DNA of 64,000 nt from Akkermansiaceae bacterium. GTDB taxonomy: Bacteria; Verrucomicrobiota; Verrucomicrobiia; Verrucomicrobiales; Akkermansiaceae. Made by a program: the position numbers and the translations under genes. Within the stretch, counting starts at the first letter, position 1. Every line of letters starts with the position of its first letter. Under the pieces are notes generated by a model. That model made no database searches, was not told the origin of the DNA, and was given only the letters and a program-made list of their open reading frames with translations. Shown one piece after another: positions 7,296 to 53,734 of this stretch. The DNA lies in contig JAKMGP010000298.1 in the NCBI GenBank assembly GCA_022424905.1, positions 1 to 64,000 of the forward strand. Reading direction: 5' to 3'.

Positions 7296-10118
7296 ATGAA
7301 GTTACTGATCACCTTCATTCTTATCACCCATTTCGCTTGGGCCACTACACCAGCGGAACATGCCACGCTCAAGGCCCTCCCCATCCTTTTATCCAAATGC
7401 GCAGCCTGCCACGGCGAGGACCCGGATGATATCGACGGCGAACTTAATCTTCTCACTCGTGAAGGATTCCTCAGAGGAGGCGAATTCATCAAGGACCTCC
7501 TTGTCCCTGGTGATCCCGAGAAATCGTTTCTTATGACCGTCATCAAATGGGAGGACCCTGACTTTGAAATGCCTCCCAAGGAGAACGATCGCCTCACGCT
7601 CAACCAGATCCTTCACATTAAAACCTGGATTGAAAATGGTGCGCCTTGGCCTGATCAAGCGACCCAGAAAAAGATCCTCGCGGACGAAAAAAACAAACGT
7701 GTAACCAGCGAAGGTATCATGATCGAAACTTCCGGTGGCCTCGCGGACGATTGGAACTACCGGCGCTACAAGCCCGAATCTGTCTGGGCATTCCTTCCAA
7801 TCAAAAAACCGATCCCCCCCATCAAAGGAGGGAATCCAATTGACGCCTTTGTTCACGCTAAAATCAAGACCACGAAATACGAACCAGCCCCACGAGCTGA
7901 CCTTCGCACTCTCATTCGTCGTGTTTCCTATGACCTTATCGGCCTCCCACCAACTCCAGCCGAAGTCACTAAATTCAGATCGGCCGCCAACCAGGATTTC
8001 GACAAAGCCTACCTCGCTTTAATTGAACGACTCCTTGCCTCACCTCAACACGGGGAGCGTTGGGCTCAGCACTGGCTTGATGTCACTCGCTACGCCGACA
8101 CCGGAGGGCTCTCTAACGACTACGAACGCTCAAATGCATGGCGCTATCGCGACTACGTCATCCGCGCCTTTAACCAAGATAAACCTTACAACGAGTTCGT
8201 CATGGAGCAAATCGCTGGGGATGAAATGGCCGACCAGTCCCTTCGCAAACGCGTAGGTGATACTGTCAAATATAGAGCTCTTCGCAGAAAAGGTCATTAC
8301 TCGGCGAAAGAAGCCGAACAAATGATCGCTTCTTCCTTCCTTCGTATGGGCCCTTGGGATCCCGCAATGGTAAAAGCACCTGAAGCCCGTCAGCAGTATA
8401 TTGACGATGTCGTCAATGCGGTTGGACAAACTTTCCTTTCCACCACGATGCGCTGCTTCAAGTGTCATGATCACAAATTCGACCCCCTTCCAACCAAAGA
8501 CTACTATCGTATCTATTCCATTTTCGAGGGAACCCAACTCGCCGAACGCTATGTTTCATGGCAGAAGAATGATAACCAGATTGGCTTTGAAGAGGAAAAG
8601 AAACAGGTTGAGGTCCTCCATAATTTTGCTGACTCTGAAGCGAAACGCCTCCAGCAAAAAGCAGAGGGAAAAGCCAAAGAATGGTATGCCAATCACAACT
8701 TGCCCTACAAGAACCTCAAAGACCGAAAAAATGACCCAGTCGACCAAAAACCTCCCCGCCACGTCGGTCTCAACGAAACAGAAAAAGGACAACTAAAAGT
8801 CCGTGAACAAGACGAATGGATCTGGAATCGACGGCGCGAACGATTCCTCCCGATGGTACAGTCGGTCTACAACGGACCAGTTCCAAATTTCCTCAATGCT
8901 CGAAAACTTCGCATGCCCATAAAAGTCGATTCAAAATGGAGGCCCGACTCACATGTTCTCACCGGAGGTTCCCTCGACGCGCCAGGTGAAAAGATTACCC
9001 CAGGCGTTCTTTCCGCTCTAGGTATTCCTGTCAACGGAAGCTCGAAAGACGACCCTTTTGCCACTCCGGAGAGCTTAGATGGGCGCCGCCTCGCACTCGC
9101 TAAATGGATCACTCACCCCAAGAATCCACTCACCGCTCGTTCTATCGTCAATAGGATTTGGCAGTATCATTTTGATAAACCCATTGCCGGCAACCCCAAC
9201 AATTTTGGAATAAAGGGATCGCCTCCTACACACCCAAAACTTATCGACTGGCTCGCTGCTGATTTCGTAGAAAATGGCTGGGGTATCAAACGCCTTCATC
9301 GCCTCATTCTCACCTCAAAAACCTACCAGCAATCAGGACGCCATCCTGAACAAGACAAACTCGCTCAGGAAGACCCCAACAACAATCTCTTCGCTTTCTT
9401 TCCTAACCGGCGGCTCACCGCCGAGGAACTTCGCGACTCAATGCTTCACATCACCGGGGAACTCAACCCACTGGCCGGGGGCCTTCCCATTCGTCCCGAA
9501 ATGAATATGGAGGTCGCCCTGCAACCACGCATGATTCAATTCTCAATCGCCCCAACCTATTTACCAAACAAAACCCCGGAACAACGAAATCGGCGCTCTA
9601 TTTACATTTATCGGATACGTGGGCTCGCCGATCCCTTCCTTGAGACATTTAACCAACCCAACCCAAACGACTCTTGTGAGATTCGGGATTCCGCCTCCGT
9701 CTCCCCACAGGCCTTCACCTTGATGAACAGCGATCTCCTCACAGACCGCTCTATCGCACTAGCTCTTCGCCTGGAAAAGGAGATGGAGACGCTCCCCGAA
9801 CAAATCCAACGGGCTTTCCAGCTCGTCTTCAATCGGAACGCCAGCGAAGAAGAAGAAGCTAAGCTTAATCCCTATGTCAGGGAGATGCGTATCTATCACG
9901 CAGAACACACCCCGAAACCCCGCAAATACCCGACCGAAATCACTCGCTCGCTTGTCGAAGAATTCTCTGGGCAAGCTTTTGATTATCAGGAAATTCTTCC
10001 AGTCTTTAACAACTACGAACGTGACGCACAGGCCTCCAACGTCAGCTCGAAGACACGAGCACTTGCCGACCTCTGCCTCATTCTCTTCAATTCACACGAA
10101 TTCGTACACAGTTACTAA
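7296..10118 (+). CDS. Exported DUF1549/DUF1553 protein with N-terminal planctomycete-type cytochrome c
   Basis: A secreted protein of the PSCyt1-PSCyt2-PSD1 architecture common in Planctomycetota and Verrucomicrobiota. A signal peptide (residues 1-16) leads into a cytochrome domain with a C35-x-x-C38-H39 haem motif and a distal MPP (near EMPPKEND). DUF1549 follows at about 180-410 (YDLIGLPPTPAEV, GERWAQHWLDVTRYADT) and has a second CxxCH (C387-FK-C390-H391, followed by DHKFDP). DUF1553 covers about 590-935 (NPLTARSIVNRIWQYHF, RRLTAEELRDSML). The biochemical role of these proteins is unproven; they often sit beside DUF1501 genes and sulfatases and are thought to act in periplasmic polysaccharide or redox metabolism. 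The next gene is its DUF1501 partner, 39 nt away. Confidence 0.9.
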   Translation: MKLLITFILITHFAWATTPAEHATLKALPILLSKCAACHGEDPDDIDGELNLLTREGFLRGGEFIKDLLVPGDPEKSFLMTVIKWEDPDFEMPPKENDRLTLNQILHIKTWIENGAPWPDQATQKKILADEKNKRVTSEGIMIETSGGLADDWNYRRYKPESVWAFLPIKKPIPPIKGGNPIDAFVHAKIKTTKYEPAPRADLRTLIRRVSYDLIGLPPTPAEVTKFRSAANQDFDKAYLALIERLLASPQHGERWAQHWLDVTRYADTGGLSNDYERSNAWRYRDYVIRAFNQDKPYNEFVMEQIAGDEMADQSLRKRVGDTVKYRALRRKGHYSAKEAEQMIASSFLRMGPWDPAMVKAPEARQQYIDDVVNAVGQTFLSTTMRCFKCHDHKFDPLPTKDYYRIYSIFEGTQLAERYVSWQKNDNQIGFEEEKKQVEVLHNFADSEAKRLQQKAEGKAKEWYANHNLPYKNLKDRKNDPVDQKPPRHVGLNETEKGQLKVREQDEWIWNRRRERFLPMVQSVYNGPVPNFLNARKLRMPIKVDSKWRPDSHVLTGGSLDAPGEKITPGVLSALGIPVNGSSKDDPFATPESLDGRRLALAKWITHPKNPLTARSIVNRIWQYHFDKPIAGNPNNFGIKGSPPTHPKLIDWLAADFVENGWGIKRLHRLILTSKTYQQSGRHPEQDKLAQEDPNNNLFAFFPNRRLTAEELRDSMLHITGELNPLAGGLPIRPEMNMEVALQPRMIQFSIAPTYLPNKTPEQRNRRSIYIYRIRGLADPFLETFNQPNPNDSCEIRDSASVSPQAFTLMNSDLLTDRSIALALRLEKEMETLPEQIQRAFQLVFNRNASEEEEAKLNPYVREMRIYHAEHTPKPRKYPTEITRSLVEEFSGQAFDYQEILPVFNNYERDAQASNVSSKTRALADLCLILFNSHEFVHSY

Positions 10119-10157
10119 GAATGGTATTGACCAATCAATCGAAAGCTCGATCTTCTC

Positions 10158-11576
10158 ATGAAATCCCCCCTCTGTTCCCGCCCCTTGTCCGATGCACATT
10201 CCCGTCGTGAATTTCTCTACGGCCTTGGATCATCAATGGGCTCCGTTGCCTTTTCATCCCTTCTCGCCGAAGAGGTAACTGCCAGCCCCATGGCCCCCAA
10301 GAAGCCCATGACTCCGGCCAAGGCCAAAAATGTCATCATGCTTTTCATGGAAGGAGGACCCGGGCACATGGACACATTCGACCCTAAACCCAAACTTACC
10401 CAGCTCCACAAAACCGAATCTAAAAACGATCGTGGCCTCGCTGCTGGAAACTACCAGTTCTACGTCGGCTCTCCTTTTGAATTCAAAAAAGCCGGACAAT
10501 CCGGAATGGATATGTGTGATCAATGGAAATACATGTCTGATCCCGAAGTGGCTGATGAACTCTGCAACTACCGTGGGTGCCAGGCCGAGTCTCTGAACCA
10601 CCCCGAGGCTCTCTTCCACATGAACACCGGCAGCCGCCTTGGGGCTGACCCTAGCCTTGGCGCCTGGACCACCTATGGCCTTGGATCAGAAAACCAAAAC
10701 CTCCCAGGATACGTCGTCATGACCGAGATGGCCCTGCCGCAAGGTGGTTCAAAAAACTGGTCCAACGGCTTCCTTCCAGCTCACTTTCAGGGAACAGCTC
10801 TCAGACCAAAAGGCTCCCCTCTTTTAAATCTAGAATCACAGCCTTTCAAATCTCGCGCTCACCAACGCGCCGCTTTGGATCAACTTGCCTTTCTTAACGA
10901 TCAACACGCTAAACGACATCCTGAGCACGCCGACCTTACCGCGCGTATGGAATCGTACGAACTCGCCTATCGCATGCAGATGGAAGTTCCCGAAGTTGTC
11001 GACCTTGACGGAGAACCTGAATACATCCGGGAAATGTATGGAATGGACAACAAGGTCACTCATGACTTTGGTCGCCAATGCCTCATGGCTCGGCGGCTCG
11101 TCGAGAAAGGCACACGCTTTGTGCAAATCTTTGCGGGTGGTTGGGACAGCCACGACTACCTTGAACGCGGTCATTCTTCGAGAATTTCCGCTGTCGACAA
11201 ACCATGGGCCGCGCTCATTAAAGATTTAAAGCAACGGGGCATGCTCGACGATACTCTCGTCATTTGGAATGGCGAATTTGGCCGAACCCCCGACAATAAT
11301 ATGCGAGGGGGCGTCTACTCTATTGGCCGCGGCCACAACGCCGACGCCATGACTATCATGATGGCTGGTGGAGGTGTAAAAAAAGGTGCCATCGTTGGAG
11401 CAACAGATGAGATCGGAGCCCGAGCCGTCGAACTGGCCCGCCCCATTCGGGACTTTCATGTCACTCTCCTTCACCTTCTTGGGCTAGACGACAACAAACT
11501 CACCTATTTCCATGCCGGCCGCTATAAACAGCTCTCCCAATTCGGCGGAACTATCATTCAGGAGTTGATTAGCTAA
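10158..11576 (+). CDS. Tat-exported DUF1501 protein
   Basis: 472 aa. A twin-arginine-type N-terminus (SRREFLYGLGSSMG, then a hydrophobic Ala/Ser stretch) suggests export folded through Tat. The DUF1501 core begins at VIMLFMEGGPGHMDTFDPKP and continues with TYGLGSENQNLPGYV, WDSHDYLERGH, LKQRGMLDDTLVIWNGEFGRTP and GRGHN. The metal-ligand-like Asp/His pattern resembles the alkaline phosphatase/sulfatase superfamily, to which DUF1501 is distantly related. It is paired with the preceding DUF1549/1553 gene, as is usual for these families. Substrate unknown. Confidence 0.88.
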   Translation: MKSPLCSRPLSDAHSRREFLYGLGSSMGSVAFSSLLAEEVTASPMAPKKPMTPAKAKNVIMLFMEGGPGHMDTFDPKPKLTQLHKTESKNDRGLAAGNYQFYVGSPFEFKKAGQSGMDMCDQWKYMSDPEVADELCNYRGCQAESLNHPEALFHMNTGSRLGADPSLGAWTTYGLGSENQNLPGYVVMTEMALPQGGSKNWSNGFLPAHFQGTALRPKGSPLLNLESQPFKSRAHQRAALDQLAFLNDQHAKRHPEHADLTARMESYELAYRMQMEVPEVVDLDGEPEYIREMYGMDNKVTHDFGRQCLMARRLVEKGTRFVQIFAGGWDSHDYLERGHSSRISAVDKPWAALIKDLKQRGMLDDTLVIWNGEFGRTPDNNMRGGVYSIGRGHNADAMTIMMAGGGVKKGAIVGATDEIGARAVELARPIRDFHVTLLHLLGLDDNKLTYFHAGRYKQLSQFGGTIIQELIS

Positions 11577-11736
11577 ATTCGTAAAAAAAATCAGGGATTG
11601 AGCCCCATCCCTTAGCCTTTGTCTAATCGACAAACTGTTAAAGCCATGGAATCGGGAAAATCCACTCCTTACCACTTGTCATTTCGCGGTTGAGCCATAG
11701 CCTATTCACAGCGCCCGCCGGGTGCTTCAGTGAACC

Positions 11737-47101: not shown

Positions 47102-47497
47102 TCAGGAATTTGGTTGAATTGAATGAAGATGAAAAAAAATAGCGCTTCTCCATTTATCTTCAACATCGCGCCTTCTCCGACTCCAAAAGAGGCCTTTCCG
47201 ATAGGCTCTTAACTTTAAATTTGAACGCTCCCCCTGTCTCTTAGACACTACCCTTACCGCCACTCTTAGGGGGAAAACAACATTGGGCTTATCCCACTTG
47301 GAGCCGTCACAAAAGTGGAAATCAATTTGATTTTCTTTTTTGCGTTTCTCTAAACCAAACAAGTATTGCGGCGACTTCGACTCTAGAAAAGAGGTAGTTT
47401 TTCGGACTGCTGTGAAATAAGGCTGGCCCGTTGGAGTGGAGCATGAACTCACGATCAAAGGCAGCATCAACAAAACCATGAAATCGAGTCGAATCAT
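47102..47497 (-). CDS. Small putative lipoprotein
   Basis: 131 aa. The N-terminal hydrophobic stretch MIRLDFMVLLMLPLIVSSC ends in a lipobox (V-S-S-C, Cys19), so it is a likely lipoprotein substrate of Lgt and LspA. The mature part is basic (RKKENQIDFHFCDG, RVVSKRQGERSNLKLRAYRKGLFWSRRRRD) with no family I recognise. ATG 47497 overlaps the stop of the upstream gene by one base (TAATG), which supports this start over the one 21 nt upstream. The next gene starts 1 nt after its stop. Confidence 0.62.
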   Translation of the reverse strand: MIRLDFMVLLMLPLIVSSCSTPTGQPYFTAVRKTTSFLESKSPQYLFGLEKRKKENQIDFHFCDGSKWDKPNVVFPLRVAVRVVSKRQGERSNLKLRAYRKGLFWSRRRRDVEDKWRSAIFFHLHSIQPNS

Positions 47498-48894
47498 TAC
47501 AGATTTCTGAGATGACATTTCACCAAAGCACGCGCTTCTTTAGGAACCCATTCTTCCCAGTCTTCGCCATTAGCAGCCGCCCTCAAGAGACTGCGCCCAG
47601 TTTTCTCAAGAAGCTTATCATCACCACAACCAATGTCCGTAATCATGCCATTTTCAATAAAATGCTCATAGAGCTTTTTCCATCCCTCGGGCGCACGAAA
47701 GTTATCTGCGGTAACATATTCCCCATCTTTACCATTCCGCCATGGATAAACCATTAGCGAGAGTTTACTCTTAAATAAGCGCCCGAATGACTCCAAGATT
47801 CCTCCCTCCAACGAATCAGACCACTTCTCTTTAAACAACTCGTTTAAAAGTCCAATCGATAGAATCATACCGATGGGTTCTCTTGTAAACCTTCTCAGCA
47901 ATGCAGCCACCCGGTGAAATTCCGGACAATTGGAAACCATAACAACCTTACCCATCGCTTGTAAGGCATCAGCACGATCCAAAAATGATACCAAGTCGAC
48001 TTCCCCATTACGTAGAAGATTACTGAGTGAAACCTCACAGACTTCCTGGCACGGTCGAGCTTCCTGAGAAACCCCAGTTGGCGGGAAAATTTTGCCAGCT
48101 TGATTCAACATATCTAAATGTAAATTTGTAACTGGCAAAAAACTTCCCCGCAGAATTAAAAGCGGAGTTTTGTAAAATGCTTCAGCGGCTTGCACAACTT
48201 CGCCATTCGGCAGAAATACGGTAGCCGAAGACATACCCTGTCTCACGAGCTCGAGCGCACAAATACGATTATCGACCATCTTGAAGGGCTCCCCCTCAAA
48301 TCTCAGCATATCGATTTCAATCCGACCCGGCGCGATAAATTCTGTGAGTGAGCTAACGAACTCTCTGAGATTTCCACCCTGATGATAGGCCGCATCAATA
48401 AAATTGACTCCTAAAATCCCAAGAGCTTCCATTTGATCAACATTCTCATCATCGAGAAGATTGACGTGAAGAACAATCGTTCCAGACGGTCTGCCTGGTT
48501 GACCCTGAAAACGGATCGCTAACCATCCATGACACTCGGCGGTATCCTGATACCCCCTTGCTCTTACCGTATTCGCAAAGGCAAAAAAACGCGACTCCCT
48601 CCCTCTCGTTTCACTGAGACGCTTTTCAAGCAACTCATACTCATAATTGACCATGTCCACCACTCGCTCCTGAGATACATAGCGCTTACTCTTTCCGTAT
48701 AGCGCATCGCTGATTGTCATGTCATAAGCTGAGATTGACTTAGCAACCGTGCCGGCAGTCGCCGAAGCCCTGAAAAACCAATTAGCCACTTCCTGCCCTG
48801 CTCCAATCTCAGCAAAGGTCCCATAGATTGAAGAATCGAGATTCATCTTCAGCGCCTTGTCTTCAGGCGTCTTAAAAGATTCAATCATCCTCAT
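47497..48894 (-). CDS. Conserved protein of unknown function (about 465 aa)
   Basis: A recognisable family without a known role. It begins ESFKTPEDKALKMNLDSSIYGTFAEIGAGQEVANWFF, then AGTVAKSISAYDMTISDALYG and RYVSQERVVDMVNYEYELLEKRL. Relatives in databases carry misleading names such as TonB-dependent receptor or nicotinate-nucleotide adenylyltransferase, but I see neither a beta-barrel and plug nor a nucleotidyltransferase HxGH motif. No signal peptide, so probably cytoplasmic. A Met cluster at the start (48894, 48888) leaves the exact start open; both overlap the end of the zinc-ribbon gene. Third gene of the five-gene unit. Confidence 0.78.
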   Translation of the reverse strand: MRMIESFKTPEDKALKMNLDSSIYGTFAEIGAGQEVANWFFRASATAGTVAKSISAYDMTISDALYGKSKRYVSQERVVDMVNYEYELLEKRLSETRGRESRFFAFANTVRARGYQDTAECHGWLAIRFQGQPGRPSGTIVLHVNLLDDENVDQMEALGILGVNFIDAAYHQGGNLREFVSSLTEFIAPGRIEIDMLRFEGEPFKMVDNRICALELVRQGMSSATVFLPNGEVVQAAEAFYKTPLLILRGSFLPVTNLHLDMLNQAGKIFPPTGVSQEARPCQEVCEVSLSNLLRNGEVDLVSFLDRADALQAMGKVVMVSNCPEFHRVAALLRRFTREPIGMILSIGLLNELFKEKWSDSLEGGILESFGRLFKSKLSLMVYPWRNGKDGEYVTADNFRAPEGWKKLYEHFIENGMITDIGCGDDKLLEKTGRSLLRAAANGEDWEEWVPKEARALVKCHLRNL

Positions 48895-50107
48895 TGTCTT
48901 TACTGAGATTTTGCAACCAGCCACTTCCTACAATCTCAAGAATTTCAACCTGATCCTTGGAGCGTGATCCAGTGGGGTAAGCAACTCTGACCATGCAGGC
49001 AACCACTTGCCCGCCCTTCATCATAACACGAAACTTTTTGTCCTGCTCTGAGTCTCTCTCAACATAGCCGAGGAAGGAATGGATCGAATCCTTTAATTCC
49101 AACCCCAACGACCTCCATTTTCCATCTTCAGAAAAATCGTAATTATAATAATTCGCGGGTTTAACAATAACCCTCATAAGAAATGGCTTGTCCGGCTTTT
49201 CCGCCCTCATTTGCTCGGGAGTATAATCGCAATAACCAACCCAACTTTCCCAATCAATCTGATAGCTTTCTTCCTCCCCATCAACAACTCGTTCAACCGC
49301 AATAGGTGAGGATAAGAAATCAGCTTTTTGCACCAACATCGTGACAACGTCTCCGTTATACTTCATTTGCGACATATCCAATGCTTCGAATCCCTCTGCC
49401 TCATAAACCTCTCTCTCGTAATAACGATCTAGCAAAGGACCCACACGTTCGGAATTCCTAATATACTTTTTTAACTCGGCAGGAGATTCGGCCGTCACAA
49501 AGTTCCTGATGGCTTTTTCTACCTTAGCATTATCAAATTTCTCAAAATCATCCACATCCTTCGCAGCCATCTCTCCCTCTTCAATTTTTTTGGTGTTCCG
49601 ATCTGCTTTCTCAATATCATCGAGCCAGGAATCAGCTTGTTCGCGATTAATTTCAGGCTTGGTGGAACCAGCCAAGGGGTTAATTCCCGAATTTTTATAG
49701 TAGACAAGACTCAGGGCCAAAAGGACGAATGCTGATAGCACAATACTCACAACCACCTTCCAAGACACGTTATCAGAGGCTTCCTCTCGTTCCCAGGCCA
49801 TTCCTCCCGCCGCCTCTCCGACATACTGACGGCGACGACCTCTCATACTGCTCTCTGCCTTTCTAAGCTGCTCGGAAGTCATTTCCTGTGCCACGGTCAC
49901 CCTCGCAAGAAGGTTTTTATTATCAATAGTCGATGAAGCCTCTTGATTCAAAACGCCCAAATTTTCACTTTCGCTCGATTGCACCGCTGCATTACAAACC
50001 GGACAACGGCCTGTTTGCCCAACTTGACTTTTCTTGATCCTAAAAAGACCGAAACATGTTGGGCATTGGAACGGAATCCATCGATTAGAGGAGGCGGTTT
50101 CACTCAT
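48881..50107 (-). CDS. Zinc-ribbon single-pass membrane protein
   Basis: 408 aa. An N-terminal zinc ribbon (C15-PT-C18 and C35-PV-C38) and a Gln/Arg-rich linker lead to one membrane helix at about 115-137 (WKVVVSIVLSAFVLLALSLVYY). The rest is a soluble domain of about 265 residues on the far side (ESPAELKKYIRNSERVGPLLDRYY, MKYNGDVVTMLVQKADFLSSP, SGWLQNLSKDNEDD). The zinc ribbon should face the cytoplasm. Similar layouts occur in hypothetical proteins of Verrucomicrobiota; I do not know a function. It starts 8 nt after the penicillin-binding protein stop and overlaps the next gene. Confidence 0.72.
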   Translation of the reverse strand: MSETASSNRWIPFQCPTCFGLFRIKKSQVGQTGRCPVCNAAVQSSESENLGVLNQEASSTIDNKNLLARVTVAQEMTSEQLRKAESSMRGRRRQYVGEAAGGMAWEREEASDNVSWKVVVSIVLSAFVLLALSLVYYKNSGINPLAGSTKPEINREQADSWLDDIEKADRNTKKIEEGEMAAKDVDDFEKFDNAKVEKAIRNFVTAESPAELKKYIRNSERVGPLLDRYYEREVYEAEGFEALDMSQMKYNGDVVTMLVQKADFLSSPIAVERVVDGEEESYQIDWESWVGYCDYTPEQMRAEKPDKPFLMRVIVKPANYYNYDFSEDGKWRSLGLELKDSIHSFLGYVERDSEQDKKFRVMMKGGQVVACMVRVAYPTGSRSKDQVEILEIVGSGWLQNLSKDNEDD

Positions 50108-50115
50108 TACTATGA

Positions 50116-52611
50116 TTAATTATTGTTCAGGGTCTCAAAATCTAGTGGAGGCAGTTCAAAACGCGGAGGCTTCGGCAATCCCAACGCAGCCTCAAGCTCT
50201 CCCCGCACGCGATCCTCCACAATCAGAACCTCGTCCTCTGAAATCCAAGCCTCGGCGCTATCATCTTTTATTCCCAGGGTTGGCGTCTCACTATTATAAG
50301 GGTCAAACCCAAGGAGGAGAGGCACCTTGGCCTTGATAGGAATGGAATTCATTGCATCACTCACTTGAGCTTGATTAGCCAGTGCCTCAATATCGAGACC
50401 TCCTCCGTGAATCGCACAAATCCCTATTTCATGTCCCTTTTGTAAATACTCCTGATAACTGGTTGTAGGAAAGCTGATTTTACCCGTCACAGGGTCTACA
50501 AAAGATTCGTTACAATAACGAGTCGGACGCATTCCAGACACACGACAAATTGAGACTTTCTCCACCGAATCTGGAGGTAAGAGCTCCGGCCCTACGAACG
50601 CTGGTTGGGAGGCGTTCATCATATCTTCCCAAATCGGATAAGCCAAATTCTTGGCAAAAGCTGTCTCGTGGATTGCCTGCCGGTCTCCTTCATAAAACCC
50701 CACCCACACTGCACAAGTAATCCGACTATTATAGCCCACCATCCACGCATCTGTTAGGCCATAAGGAGTTCCACTCTTACCGCCCCCCAGTAGCAGACTC
50801 GACTTTAGTCCTTTTGAAGACTCAGCGAGATTCCCCTTTCTTAAAACATCGTTAAGAACGCTATGAACTTGAAAGGCAACAGCATCCGAACAAACCTCCT
50901 GACTCTCCAGCACCGGGCCATTTCCATTTAGCGGGTAGACGGTCTTCCCATCGATATCCTGAATCTCCAAGATATAGTGCCTCGCAGTAATCCGGCTTCC
51001 TCCCCGCGGAAAGGCCGAGTAGGCGGAAACAACTTCAGGCATGCTCACGTTGTCGAAGCCAACAATCATCCGATTTAAAAGCTTTTCCGAAGGAAGCTTG
51101 AGTCCAAAATTTTCTGAAACCGCGTGCACATTTGAAAGACCAATTTCCTGGCCGAGCTCAACTGTTGCTGCAATTTTGGACATTGCGAGGGCTCGACGCG
51201 AGGTGATCTTCCCTTCATATCCCGGATTGGCCACTTCCATTCCCCACTCACCAGCGACTCCTTCCAGTCCGCCGACCTGAAGCTTACGAAGATCCATCTG
51301 CTCATCGGTTAACATGGTTGCTGGATGTTTCCCTCTTTCAAAACCAGTAGCATAGACGAAAGGGAAAAAGGCTGTCCCAAGTGGGCGGCTACCATTCTCA
51401 ATAAAATCATACTGTGAGTGCGCAAAGTTGCGGCCGCCTACATGAGCGATCACTTCACCGTTCTCATGATCCATCATTAACGTCGCACCTTGAAGATATT
51501 TCGGTGGTCCATTCGACTTCTTGTATTCCGAATACCTTGGATGTTTATATCCGTCCTGGTTCTCAACCTGTAAAAGTTGGCTCGCCATTTTTTGTTCGGC
51601 GGCCCATTGAACAGATGCATCAATGGTAGTTCGAATCGTGTAACCTCCTCGTGAAAGAGCCTCTTCTCCCACCAAATCCCGAGCTTGCTCAGCAACGATT
51701 TCATAAAGGAATGTTTTACCACGGCGAATCGGATTAGGATTCAACACCACTGGATCAGAGATCATTTTGTCACGATCTGATCTGGAAATCATACCCTCCA
51801 AAGCCATCCGATTGATGACCATGTCACGATTTTTTTTGTTCTCATCTAGATTATTGAGCGGCGAAATCCGCTGTGGATTCTTCAAACAGGCCACGATAGA
51901 AGCCGACTCTGAAATAGTAAGGTCCTCTGGTTCTTTACCAAAGTATCCAAGCGAGGCAGAACGCACCCCGTAGAACCCCGAACCAAATGGCACTAGGTTT
52001 AAATACATCTCAAGAATGTCTTCCTTCGCCGCTTTCTTGCGGGCCTCTTGATCGTTGGGATACTCGGACTCCAATTTTCTCTGGAAATGCTCCTCGATTC
52101 TCAGCGCAACGAATGCCTCCACCACCTTTCGCTCATACCCCGTCCACTCACGACGCCTTTTTTCACCGAGCAGATCGAAGGATTTCCGCGCCAGCTGCAT
52201 CGTAATCGTCCCAGCTCCCTGCGTGATTGAACCGCTCTGAAAATTTAGCCAAGCCGCACGAGCCACGCCAACCCAATCAACCCCATCATGGGCATAAAAC
52301 CGTTGATCCTCCTGCGCCAGAACCGCGTCTACAAAAACCGGGGGAATTTCCTCCAGCGGAAGAGAAAAACGATTCTCTACAAACATTGTGCCTATCTCAA
52401 CGCCCCCACGGTCATGGATAAAGCTCATCTCCTCCTTCTCTCCAACCCGCTCCAAGTTATACTCCATTGCAATCTCACGATAAGGATTCAGTTTTCTATC
52501 CCCAAAGCGCGCCGCAAAACCAACTGCGATCAAGCACAACAGGCAAAAGAGCCAAAAACCCTTTCGCTTGAAAAACCCGCGCCTTGCCCTCTTGTTCCTT
52601 ATCCCATACAT
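50116..52611 (-). CDS. Class A penicillin-binding protein with degenerate transpeptidase site
   Basis: 831 aa. One N-terminal membrane helix (about 18-36) precedes a glycosyltransferase 51 domain (about 65-260) with its motifs intact: catalytic E101 in AQEDQRFYAHDGVD, QGAGTITMQLARK, and DILEMYLNLVPFGSGFYGV. The transpeptidase domain (about 330-640) aligns with class A enzymes, but the nucleophile motif SxxK is T413-A-F-F416 (RPLGTAFFPFVY) and the SxN motif is S478-K-I480; only the KTG-type motif survives (K612-S-G-T). It should therefore polymerise glycan but not cross-link peptides, unless it binds a partner enzyme. First gene of a five-gene unit. Its ATG overlaps the divergent methyltransferase start (CATG at 52609-52612). 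Confidence 0.9.
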   Translation of the reverse strand: MYGIRNKRARRGFFKRKGFWLFCLLCLIAVGFAARFGDRKLNPYREIAMEYNLERVGEKEEMSFIHDRGGVEIGTMFVENRFSLPLEEIPPVFVDAVLAQEDQRFYAHDGVDWVGVARAAWLNFQSGSITQGAGTITMQLARKSFDLLGEKRRREWTGYERKVVEAFVALRIEEHFQRKLESEYPNDQEARKKAAKEDILEMYLNLVPFGSGFYGVRSASLGYFGKEPEDLTISESASIVACLKNPQRISPLNNLDENKKNRDMVINRMALEGMISRSDRDKMISDPVVLNPNPIRRGKTFLYEIVAEQARDLVGEEALSRGGYTIRTTIDASVQWAAEQKMASQLLQVENQDGYKHPRYSEYKKSNGPPKYLQGATLMMDHENGEVIAHVGGRNFAHSQYDFIENGSRPLGTAFFPFVYATGFERGKHPATMLTDEQMDLRKLQVGGLEGVAGEWGMEVANPGYEGKITSRRALAMSKIAATVELGQEIGLSNVHAVSENFGLKLPSEKLLNRMIVGFDNVSMPEVVSAYSAFPRGGSRITARHYILEIQDIDGKTVYPLNGNGPVLESQEVCSDAVAFQVHSVLNDVLRKGNLAESSKGLKSSLLLGGGKSGTPYGLTDAWMVGYNSRITCAVWVGFYEGDRQAIHETAFAKNLAYPIWEDMMNASQPAFVGPELLPPDSVEKVSICRVSGMRPTRYCNESFVDPVTGKISFPTTSYQEYLQKGHEIGICAIHGGGLDIEALANQAQVSDAMNSIPIKAKVPLLLGFDPYNSETPTLGIKDDSAEAWISEDEVLIVEDRVRGELEAALGLPKPPRFELPPLDFETLNNN

Positions 52612-53734
52612 GATGTCTCGCGAAACCGTCGATTTAACTGGCCTCCAACATGCATTTCCTTACCCCCGATCCGCCACGGGGGCAATCACTGACTTGGGTC
52701 GGCTTATCCTTGCTAGAGTCGAAGAATCTGGTCCCATTTCCTTTGCTGATTACATGGCGCAGTGCCTCTACCACCCCGAACTAGGCTACTACGCCCGCCC
52801 GGGAAAGCCCACCGTCTCAAAAAAGGGTGATTTCATTACGAGCGTTTCTGTCGGGTCGGTCTTCGGAAAACTCCTCGCTCACCGGCTTTATAAGTTTTGG
52901 TGCGCCAATGGGTCACCCAAAACCTTCACAATCCTTGAACCCGGTGCTCACGATGGCTCCCTCTGCCTCGATATCCTCGAAGCCATAAGCAACCTCGCTC
53001 CTGAATTCCGGAGTGCCGTCGACTACCTTGTTCATGAACCTCTCTCGGTTCGCCGCAAATCACTTCAGGCCAAACTCCAAGGTAAAGCTTGCGTTATCGC
53101 TACGCCAGACGATTGCCATGCAAAAATCGGAGCCCTGATCGCTAACGAAATACTCGATGCCCTCCCGGTGCCTCTCTATTTAAGGTCAAATGATCAATGG
53201 CACGAAATACTGGTAACATCAAATGCTGGCTCGCTTGACTGGGACAGCCGGCCCGCCAAACCTGATCTCCCCACAAACTTACCGGAAGGCTACGTCACCG
53301 AAGGGCCTCCCGAACTCTCTTCATTCATGACGCCACCCGCCAGAATGCTCGAAAATGCCCTATTTATTTGGATCGATTACGGTCTCGATGAAGAAGCACT
53401 TTATCACCCAGCCCGAACAGCCGGAACTCTTCGTTGCTACTTTAAACACAAAACCTGCGCTCACCCCCTTGAGAATCCCGGAGAGCAGGATCTCACTGCA
53501 GACGTTAACTTTACCGCTGTTGAAAAAATCGCTTCCTCACTGGGTTTCCAAATACACCCTGCCATGAACCAAAGCCGCTATTTAACCTACTGTGGAAAGG
53601 AGTGGCTTCTCTCTAACCCATCACCAAAGGAAATTAGTCAGTTCCAAACCCTGATTCACCCCACGCAGTTTGGCGGCCGGTTCTATGCCCTTGAGATGAC
53701 CAAAGGTAATGTCAATCCCGCATCCCTTATTTAG
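52610..53734 (+). CDS. MidA/NDUFAF7-like SAM-dependent methyltransferase
   Basis: 374 aa. A bacterial relative of the protein arginine methyltransferase NDUFAF7 (family PF02636). Markers: ISFADYMAQCLYHPELGYYARPG, GDFITSVSVGSVFGKLLA, TILEPGAHDGSLCLDIL (SAM motif I), LIANEILDALPVPLY and ADVNFTAVEKIASSLGF. In eukaryotes the enzyme acts on a complex I subunit; the bacterial substrate is not settled. Two adjacent ATGs (52610, 52613) are possible. The first overlaps the start codon of the divergent penicillin-binding protein gene, so a promoter must lie inside that gene. Confidence 0.87.
   Translation: MMSRETVDLTGLQHAFPYPRSATGAITDLGRLILARVEESGPISFADYMAQCLYHPELGYYARPGKPTVSKKGDFITSVSVGSVFGKLLAHRLYKFWCANGSPKTFTILEPGAHDGSLCLDILEAISNLAPEFRSAVDYLVHEPLSVRRKSLQAKLQGKACVIATPDDCHAKIGALIANEILDALPVPLYLRSNDQWHEILVTSNAGSLDWDSRPAKPDLPTNLPEGYVTEGPPELSSFMTPPARMLENALFIWIDYGLDEEALYHPARTAGTLRCYFKHKTCAHPLENPGEQDLTADVNFTAVEKIASSLGFQIHPAMNQSRYLTYCGKEWLLSNPSPKEISQFQTLIHPTQFGGRFYALEMTKGNVNPASLI

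Follow-up and report, generated by a model that had tools for sequence, protein, structure and literature searches.

The window, that is, the whole stretch of 64,000 nucleotides that was analyzed, carries a class A penicillin-binding protein (PBP) gene on its minus strand. The product has the architecture of a class A enzyme, in which a transmembrane (TM) anchor is followed by a GT51 glycosyltransferase (GT) domain and then a transpeptidase (TP) domain (Table 1). However, the Pfam match of the TP domain is marginal (24.9 bits against a cut-off of 22.1). The protein scores 377.3 bits with TIGR02074, the curated PBP1A family, under the cut-off of 508.75, and it falls far under the cut-off of TIGR02070, the family of monofunctional glycosyltransferases. 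Among the signatures of a bifunctional enzyme, K(T/S)G is present, whereas SxxK and SxN are absent. The initial annotation had placed a class A PBP here without giving a strand; it had described the GT motifs as intact, the nucleophile motif as replaced, the SxN motif as altered and the KTG motif as kept. When the sequence was re-read, the coordinates, residues and codons were all borne out, and the GT motifs E101, QGAGTITMQLAR and ERKVVE (E165) were present.

Table 1. Features of the PBP locus, with the short class A paralogs of the source genome.
Feature	Position	Strand	Basis or remark
Class A PBP-type gene	50116..52611	-	ORF runs 52611->50116, ATG start, 831 aa; TM anchor, GT51, pseudo-transpeptidase domain, C-terminal tail; orthologs, Pfam, model
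N-terminal hydrophobic helix, residues 17-40, predicted membrane anchor	52492..52563	-	Hydrophobic sequence; model helix 17-49
GT51 peptidoglycan glycosyltransferase domain, residues 75-269	51805..52389	-	Pfam PF00912 (Transgly) 5.8e-51; genome-wide GT51 search gives the same span
GT catalytic Glu E101	52309..52311	-	Invariant, 167/167 full-length ortholog rows
Second GT catalytic Glu E165 (RKxxE; ERKVVE)	52117..52119	-	Invariant, 167/167 full-length ortholog rows
Pseudo-transpeptidase domain, residues 375-629	50725..51489	-	Pfam PF00905 1.4e-5; fold like class A PBPs
Former SxxK, now T413-A-F-F416	51364..51375	-	Direct reading: codon 413 ACA (51373-51375), codon 416 TTC (51364-51366)
Former SxN, now S478-K479-I480	51172..51180	-	Motif reading, ortholog comparison
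KTG motif kept as K612-S-G-T615	50767..50778	-	Motif reading, ortholog comparison
Zinc ribbon + TM + periplasmic domain protein, 408 aa	48881..50107	-	Downstream of PBP, co-directional, 8-bp gap
SAM-dependent methyltransferase (PF02636)	52568..53734	+	Divergent upstream neighbour of PBP
Short class A family in source genome	G000:C85 about 10026-11642 (L070); G000:C325 (L071)		

The gene for the 408-aa zinc-ribbon protein lies beside the PBP gene in 53 of the 80 family loci, and the protein evolves fast. It is a possible partner of the PBP. It belongs to no Pfam family, and a fold search bearing on a possible role as an LpoB-like activator returned no match at E<0.001. The methyltransferase gene is syntenic with the PBP gene in 77/80 family loci, and this synteny supports orthology only. 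The putative methyltransferase ATG (52610) overlaps the ATG of the PBP on the opposite strand (CATG, 52609-52612). If the methyltransferase does start at 52610, there is no intergenic space for a promoter. A further gene (47497-48924) encodes a 475-aa protein without a Pfam match, which is highly conserved (54-98%) next to the operon in many loci.

An ortholog was matched in all 58 nearest genomes (58/58). The family set comprised 80 named loci from Akkermansiaceae/Verrucomicrobiales, including Luteolibacter, Roseibacillus, Haloferula, Persicirhabdus and many MAGs, and with the window it numbered 81. All 81 orthologs, the window counted, have Thr at the nucleophile position and Phe, Leu, Tyr or His at the Lys position, and all 81 have Ile, Val or Leu in place of the SxN Asn and keep both GT glutamates. 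Because the same losses are shared by orthologs from independent assemblies, sequencing or assembly error was rejected as an explanation, as was chance. One ortholog (L161:1203-3596) has an in-frame stop near its N-terminus, at residue 68 of the aligned region, which is possibly an assembly error.

Wider surveys covered 114 genomes at the order level and 237 at the class level. After the class-wide set had been thinned to no more than 70% identity, 84 orthologs were left. The nucleophile position is Thr in 82 of these and Ser in 2; the Lys of SxxK is lost in 72 and kept in 12, SxN is not intact in 63 and kept in 21, and the KTG Lys is kept in 82. The unthinned set of 167 full-length rows, in which at least 6 loci are included twice, has both GT glutamates in every row, Thr at the nucleophile position in 162 and the Lys in 22. 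The putative Akkermansia muciniphila BAA-835 ortholog (L182 in G087, at about 2584485-2586926) reads GTAILPF, SKI and KTGT, and that of the putative Verrucomicrobium spinosum DSM 4136 (L212 in G080) reads GTAFLPF, SRT and KTGT. A general looseness of verrucomicrobial class A PBPs does not account for this pattern: S-x-x-K, S-x-N and K-T-G are kept in every C46-type class A paralog sampled from these genomes and in 11 further class A PBPs from the phylum. Alignment with verrucomicrobial class A PBPs, the check proposed in the initial annotation, found the loss to be class-wide and conserved and the other class A PBPs to be canonical.

The group is not uniform. The intact set of Ser, Lys, SxN and KTG is found in a few orthologs (L053, L239, L240, L286 and L287), of which the first three come from the order and the last two from another family of the class. 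These five could be retentions or reversions. Another minority keeps TxxK together with SxN, and these proteins, judged by their motifs, could be threonine-nucleophile intermediates. Since both minorities exist, some members of the ortholog group may still be active or may be active again.

The AlphaFold model, built from 50 orthologs, has a mean pLDDT of 81.8 and a pTM of 0.68, with pLDDT values of about 93-97 in the motif blocks. It places T413 (pLDDT about 97) in the first turn of helix 412-425, where the nucleophile normally sits, and SKI in the turn preceding helix 480-490. KSG lies where strand 610-614 ends. The best structural matches are class A PBPs (Foldseek, VIA-align), namely Acinetobacter baumannii PBP1a with a Z score of 44.9 and Escherichia coli PBP1b with about 42. 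The predicted fold is otherwise aligned, as the initial annotation had held, and because the motifs occupy their classical positions in the model, an alignment slip is unlikely to be the source of the apparent loss. A scan of residues 372-670, which take in the TP domain, for a substitute SxxK at the nucleophile position yielded no [STC]xxK, which excludes a register shift or a nearby SxxK.

Purifying selection on the TP domain is strong: comparisons of close relatives give a dN/dS of 0.02-0.09 for this domain and of 0.03-0.08 for the GT domain. The ratio of TP to GT distances over seven genomes is 1.26 in the PBP against 0.95 in the canonical paralog, which is a mild relaxation and not decay. 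The former Lys and Asn sites change in coordination, as far as can be read from the aligned motifs: a hydrophobic residue 480 accompanies a hydrophobic residue 416 in 72 of 74 rows, and the form with Gly478 carries mostly Thr416 among the full-length rows, both being descriptive observations on rows that share ancestry. The losses of Lys and SxN went in the same direction in independent pairs (about 3.4 vs 0.1), with too few pairs for significance. On a tree computed with the motif columns removed, parsimony required at least 3 changes at the nucleophile position, 8 at the Lys and 14 at SxN. A clean order of loss (Ser, then Lys) was not established, because the deep branches of this tree are weakly supported.

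The source genome is a MAG (92.8% complete, 5.3% contaminated) with five GT51 loci: the PBP, two canonical class A proteins (C46 and C220), and two copies, 96% identical, of a shorter class A protein. It also contains three class B-type transpeptidase hits, YkuD-type L,D-transpeptidase hits and two SEDS proteins. With canonical class A, class B-type and YkuD-type matches in the genome, alternative cross-linkers exist. Members of the short class A family (about 540-613 aa) have an intact GT51 domain, while their SxxK is replaced (GPLMIEP, GDLFTP and others), their SxN region is deleted and KTG is absent. Relatives of the short family are L074, L075, L077, L078, L079 and L080, together with L293, L296, L298 and L301 of Akkermansia-type genomes, and in G027, G032, G033 and G034 the short gene adjoins a canonical class A PBP. 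The putative A. muciniphila BAA-835 genome has three GT51 proteins: a canonical one (L295), the dead-site ortholog (L182) and a pruned short one (L296). Judged by sequence, the same cells seem to have arrived at GT-only class A PBPs along two routes.

We consider it likely that the PBP polymerizes glycan, that its TP domain is a pseudo-transpeptidase, and that other enzymes cross-link its strands. Anchored in the membrane, it would act as a glycan-strand polymerase only, and its GT51 domain, to judge from the motifs, would polymerize lipid II. The TP domain is predicted to keep its fold and the KTG strand, but the Ser nucleophile, the Lys general base and the Asn of SxN are gone. Since these three residues are lost, the domain would form no acyl-enzyme, and neither cross-linking nor acylation by beta-lactams is expected. 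The strands would instead be cross-linked by the canonical class A PBPs, class B PBPs and L,D-transpeptidases, to which they would be handed over. The dead domain probably persists as a pseudoenzyme module that has a role in structure, in partner docking or in regulation. The conservation of KTG and its Lys counts against a polymerase-only protein.

This conservation is part of the argument for a weakly active TP site, in which Thr413 would serve as the nucleophile and Lys612 of KSG or Lys479 as the base. The Thr is near-fixed at the nucleophile position rather than random (162/167 rows), and some orthologs combine it with an intact Lys and SxN. However, the Lys of SxxK has been replaced by Phe or Leu here and family-wide, and the SxN Asn by Ile, Val or Leu. 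By the established enzymology of penicillin-interacting serine enzymes, a site missing three catalytic residues is not expected to acylate, and we regard residual activity as very unlikely. It is also very unlikely that the PBP is enzymatically inactive throughout and serves purely as a scaffold for other wall enzymes. Such a role would fit a TP domain that is dead by sequence and yet conserved without catalysis, but no full-length ortholog departs from either GT catalytic glutamate or from the GT51 motifs around them, and constraint on the GT domain is at least as strong as on the TP domain.

Decay of the TP domain under relaxed selection, without a present role, would be consistent with its somewhat faster change relative to the GT domain than in the active paralog and with the repeated changes of Lys and SxN on the tree. 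We find this most unlikely in view of the low dN/dS of the domain and of residues fixed family-wide, such as T413, P417, K479, K612 and G614. Moreover, the reading frames are open almost everywhere and the replacements are coordinated rather than random. The second class A family of the same genomes has lost large pieces of its TP domain, so deletion is possible in these cells, yet the TP domain of the PBP is undeleted.

Beyond the polymerase with a pseudo-transpeptidase domain, we put forward, tentatively, a broader reading. An ancient, Verrucomicrobiia-wide class A lineage may have turned its TP domain into a conserved pseudoenzyme with a non-catalytic job of its own. That job could be, for instance, to sense stem peptides or to dock class B PBPs or L,D-transpeptidases, and so to couple polymerization to cross-linking in trans. 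Together with the second, independently pruned family, this would leave cells such as A. muciniphila with a majority of GT-only enzymes among their GT51 proteins.

On the usual view, a bifunctional PBP joins the synthesis of strands to their cross-linking in one molecule. A natural, conserved uncoupling that extends across a class and includes cultivable organisms (putatively A. muciniphila BAA-835 and V. spinosum DSM 4136) makes it possible to test directly what the TP domain does besides catalysis and also allows the cross-linking of glycan strands in trans to be studied. To annotate these genes as encoding a "penicillin-binding protein" is misleading, and the polymerase is expected to be unaffected by beta-lactams. 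A literature search restricted to open-licence papers found no description of a natural TP-dead class A PBP.

The closest known relatives are the class A PBPs of the PBP1A type (TIGR02074; PF00912 + PF00905), which have the same domain order, TM anchor, GT51 motifs, TP fold and KTG, and PBP1A and PBP1B are the best structural matches. The PBP differs from this type in lacking the nucleophile and the Lys of SxxK as well as the Asn of SxN, and in scoring below the TIGR02074 cut-off. PBP1C of E. coli, the subject of Schiffer and Holtje in 1999, is a comparable case: reportedly, this class A PBP is often viewed as acting chiefly as a transglycosylase. However, the PBP1C-type proteins found here keep SxxK, SxN and KTG (L072 reads GSTLKPF, SLN and KTGT), unlike the PBP with its lost SxxK and SxN. 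The role of E. coli PBP1C has been described as unclear (PMC6456298). The monofunctional glycosyltransferases MtgA and SgtB share the predicted activity, polymerization of lipid II without cross-linking, whereas the PBP still has a full-length, conserved TP domain attached, which is predicted to be folded.

GT activity without TP activity is likewise found in class A PBPs inactivated in the laboratory, namely the E. coli PBP1A S473 and PBP1B S510 mutants and pneumococcal PBP2A with an inactive TP. PBP1A and PBP1B of E. coli polymerize even when the TP is inactivated, and pneumococcal class B PBPs are active alongside a class A PBP with an active GT and an inactive TP and cross-link its strands (PMC4632607). 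Contrary to a simple hand-over, E. coli PBP2 left the strands of TP-dead PBP1A un-cross-linked (PMC4632607). These laboratory proteins are engineered point mutants, whereas in the PBP described here several catalytic residues have been lost naturally and across the class.
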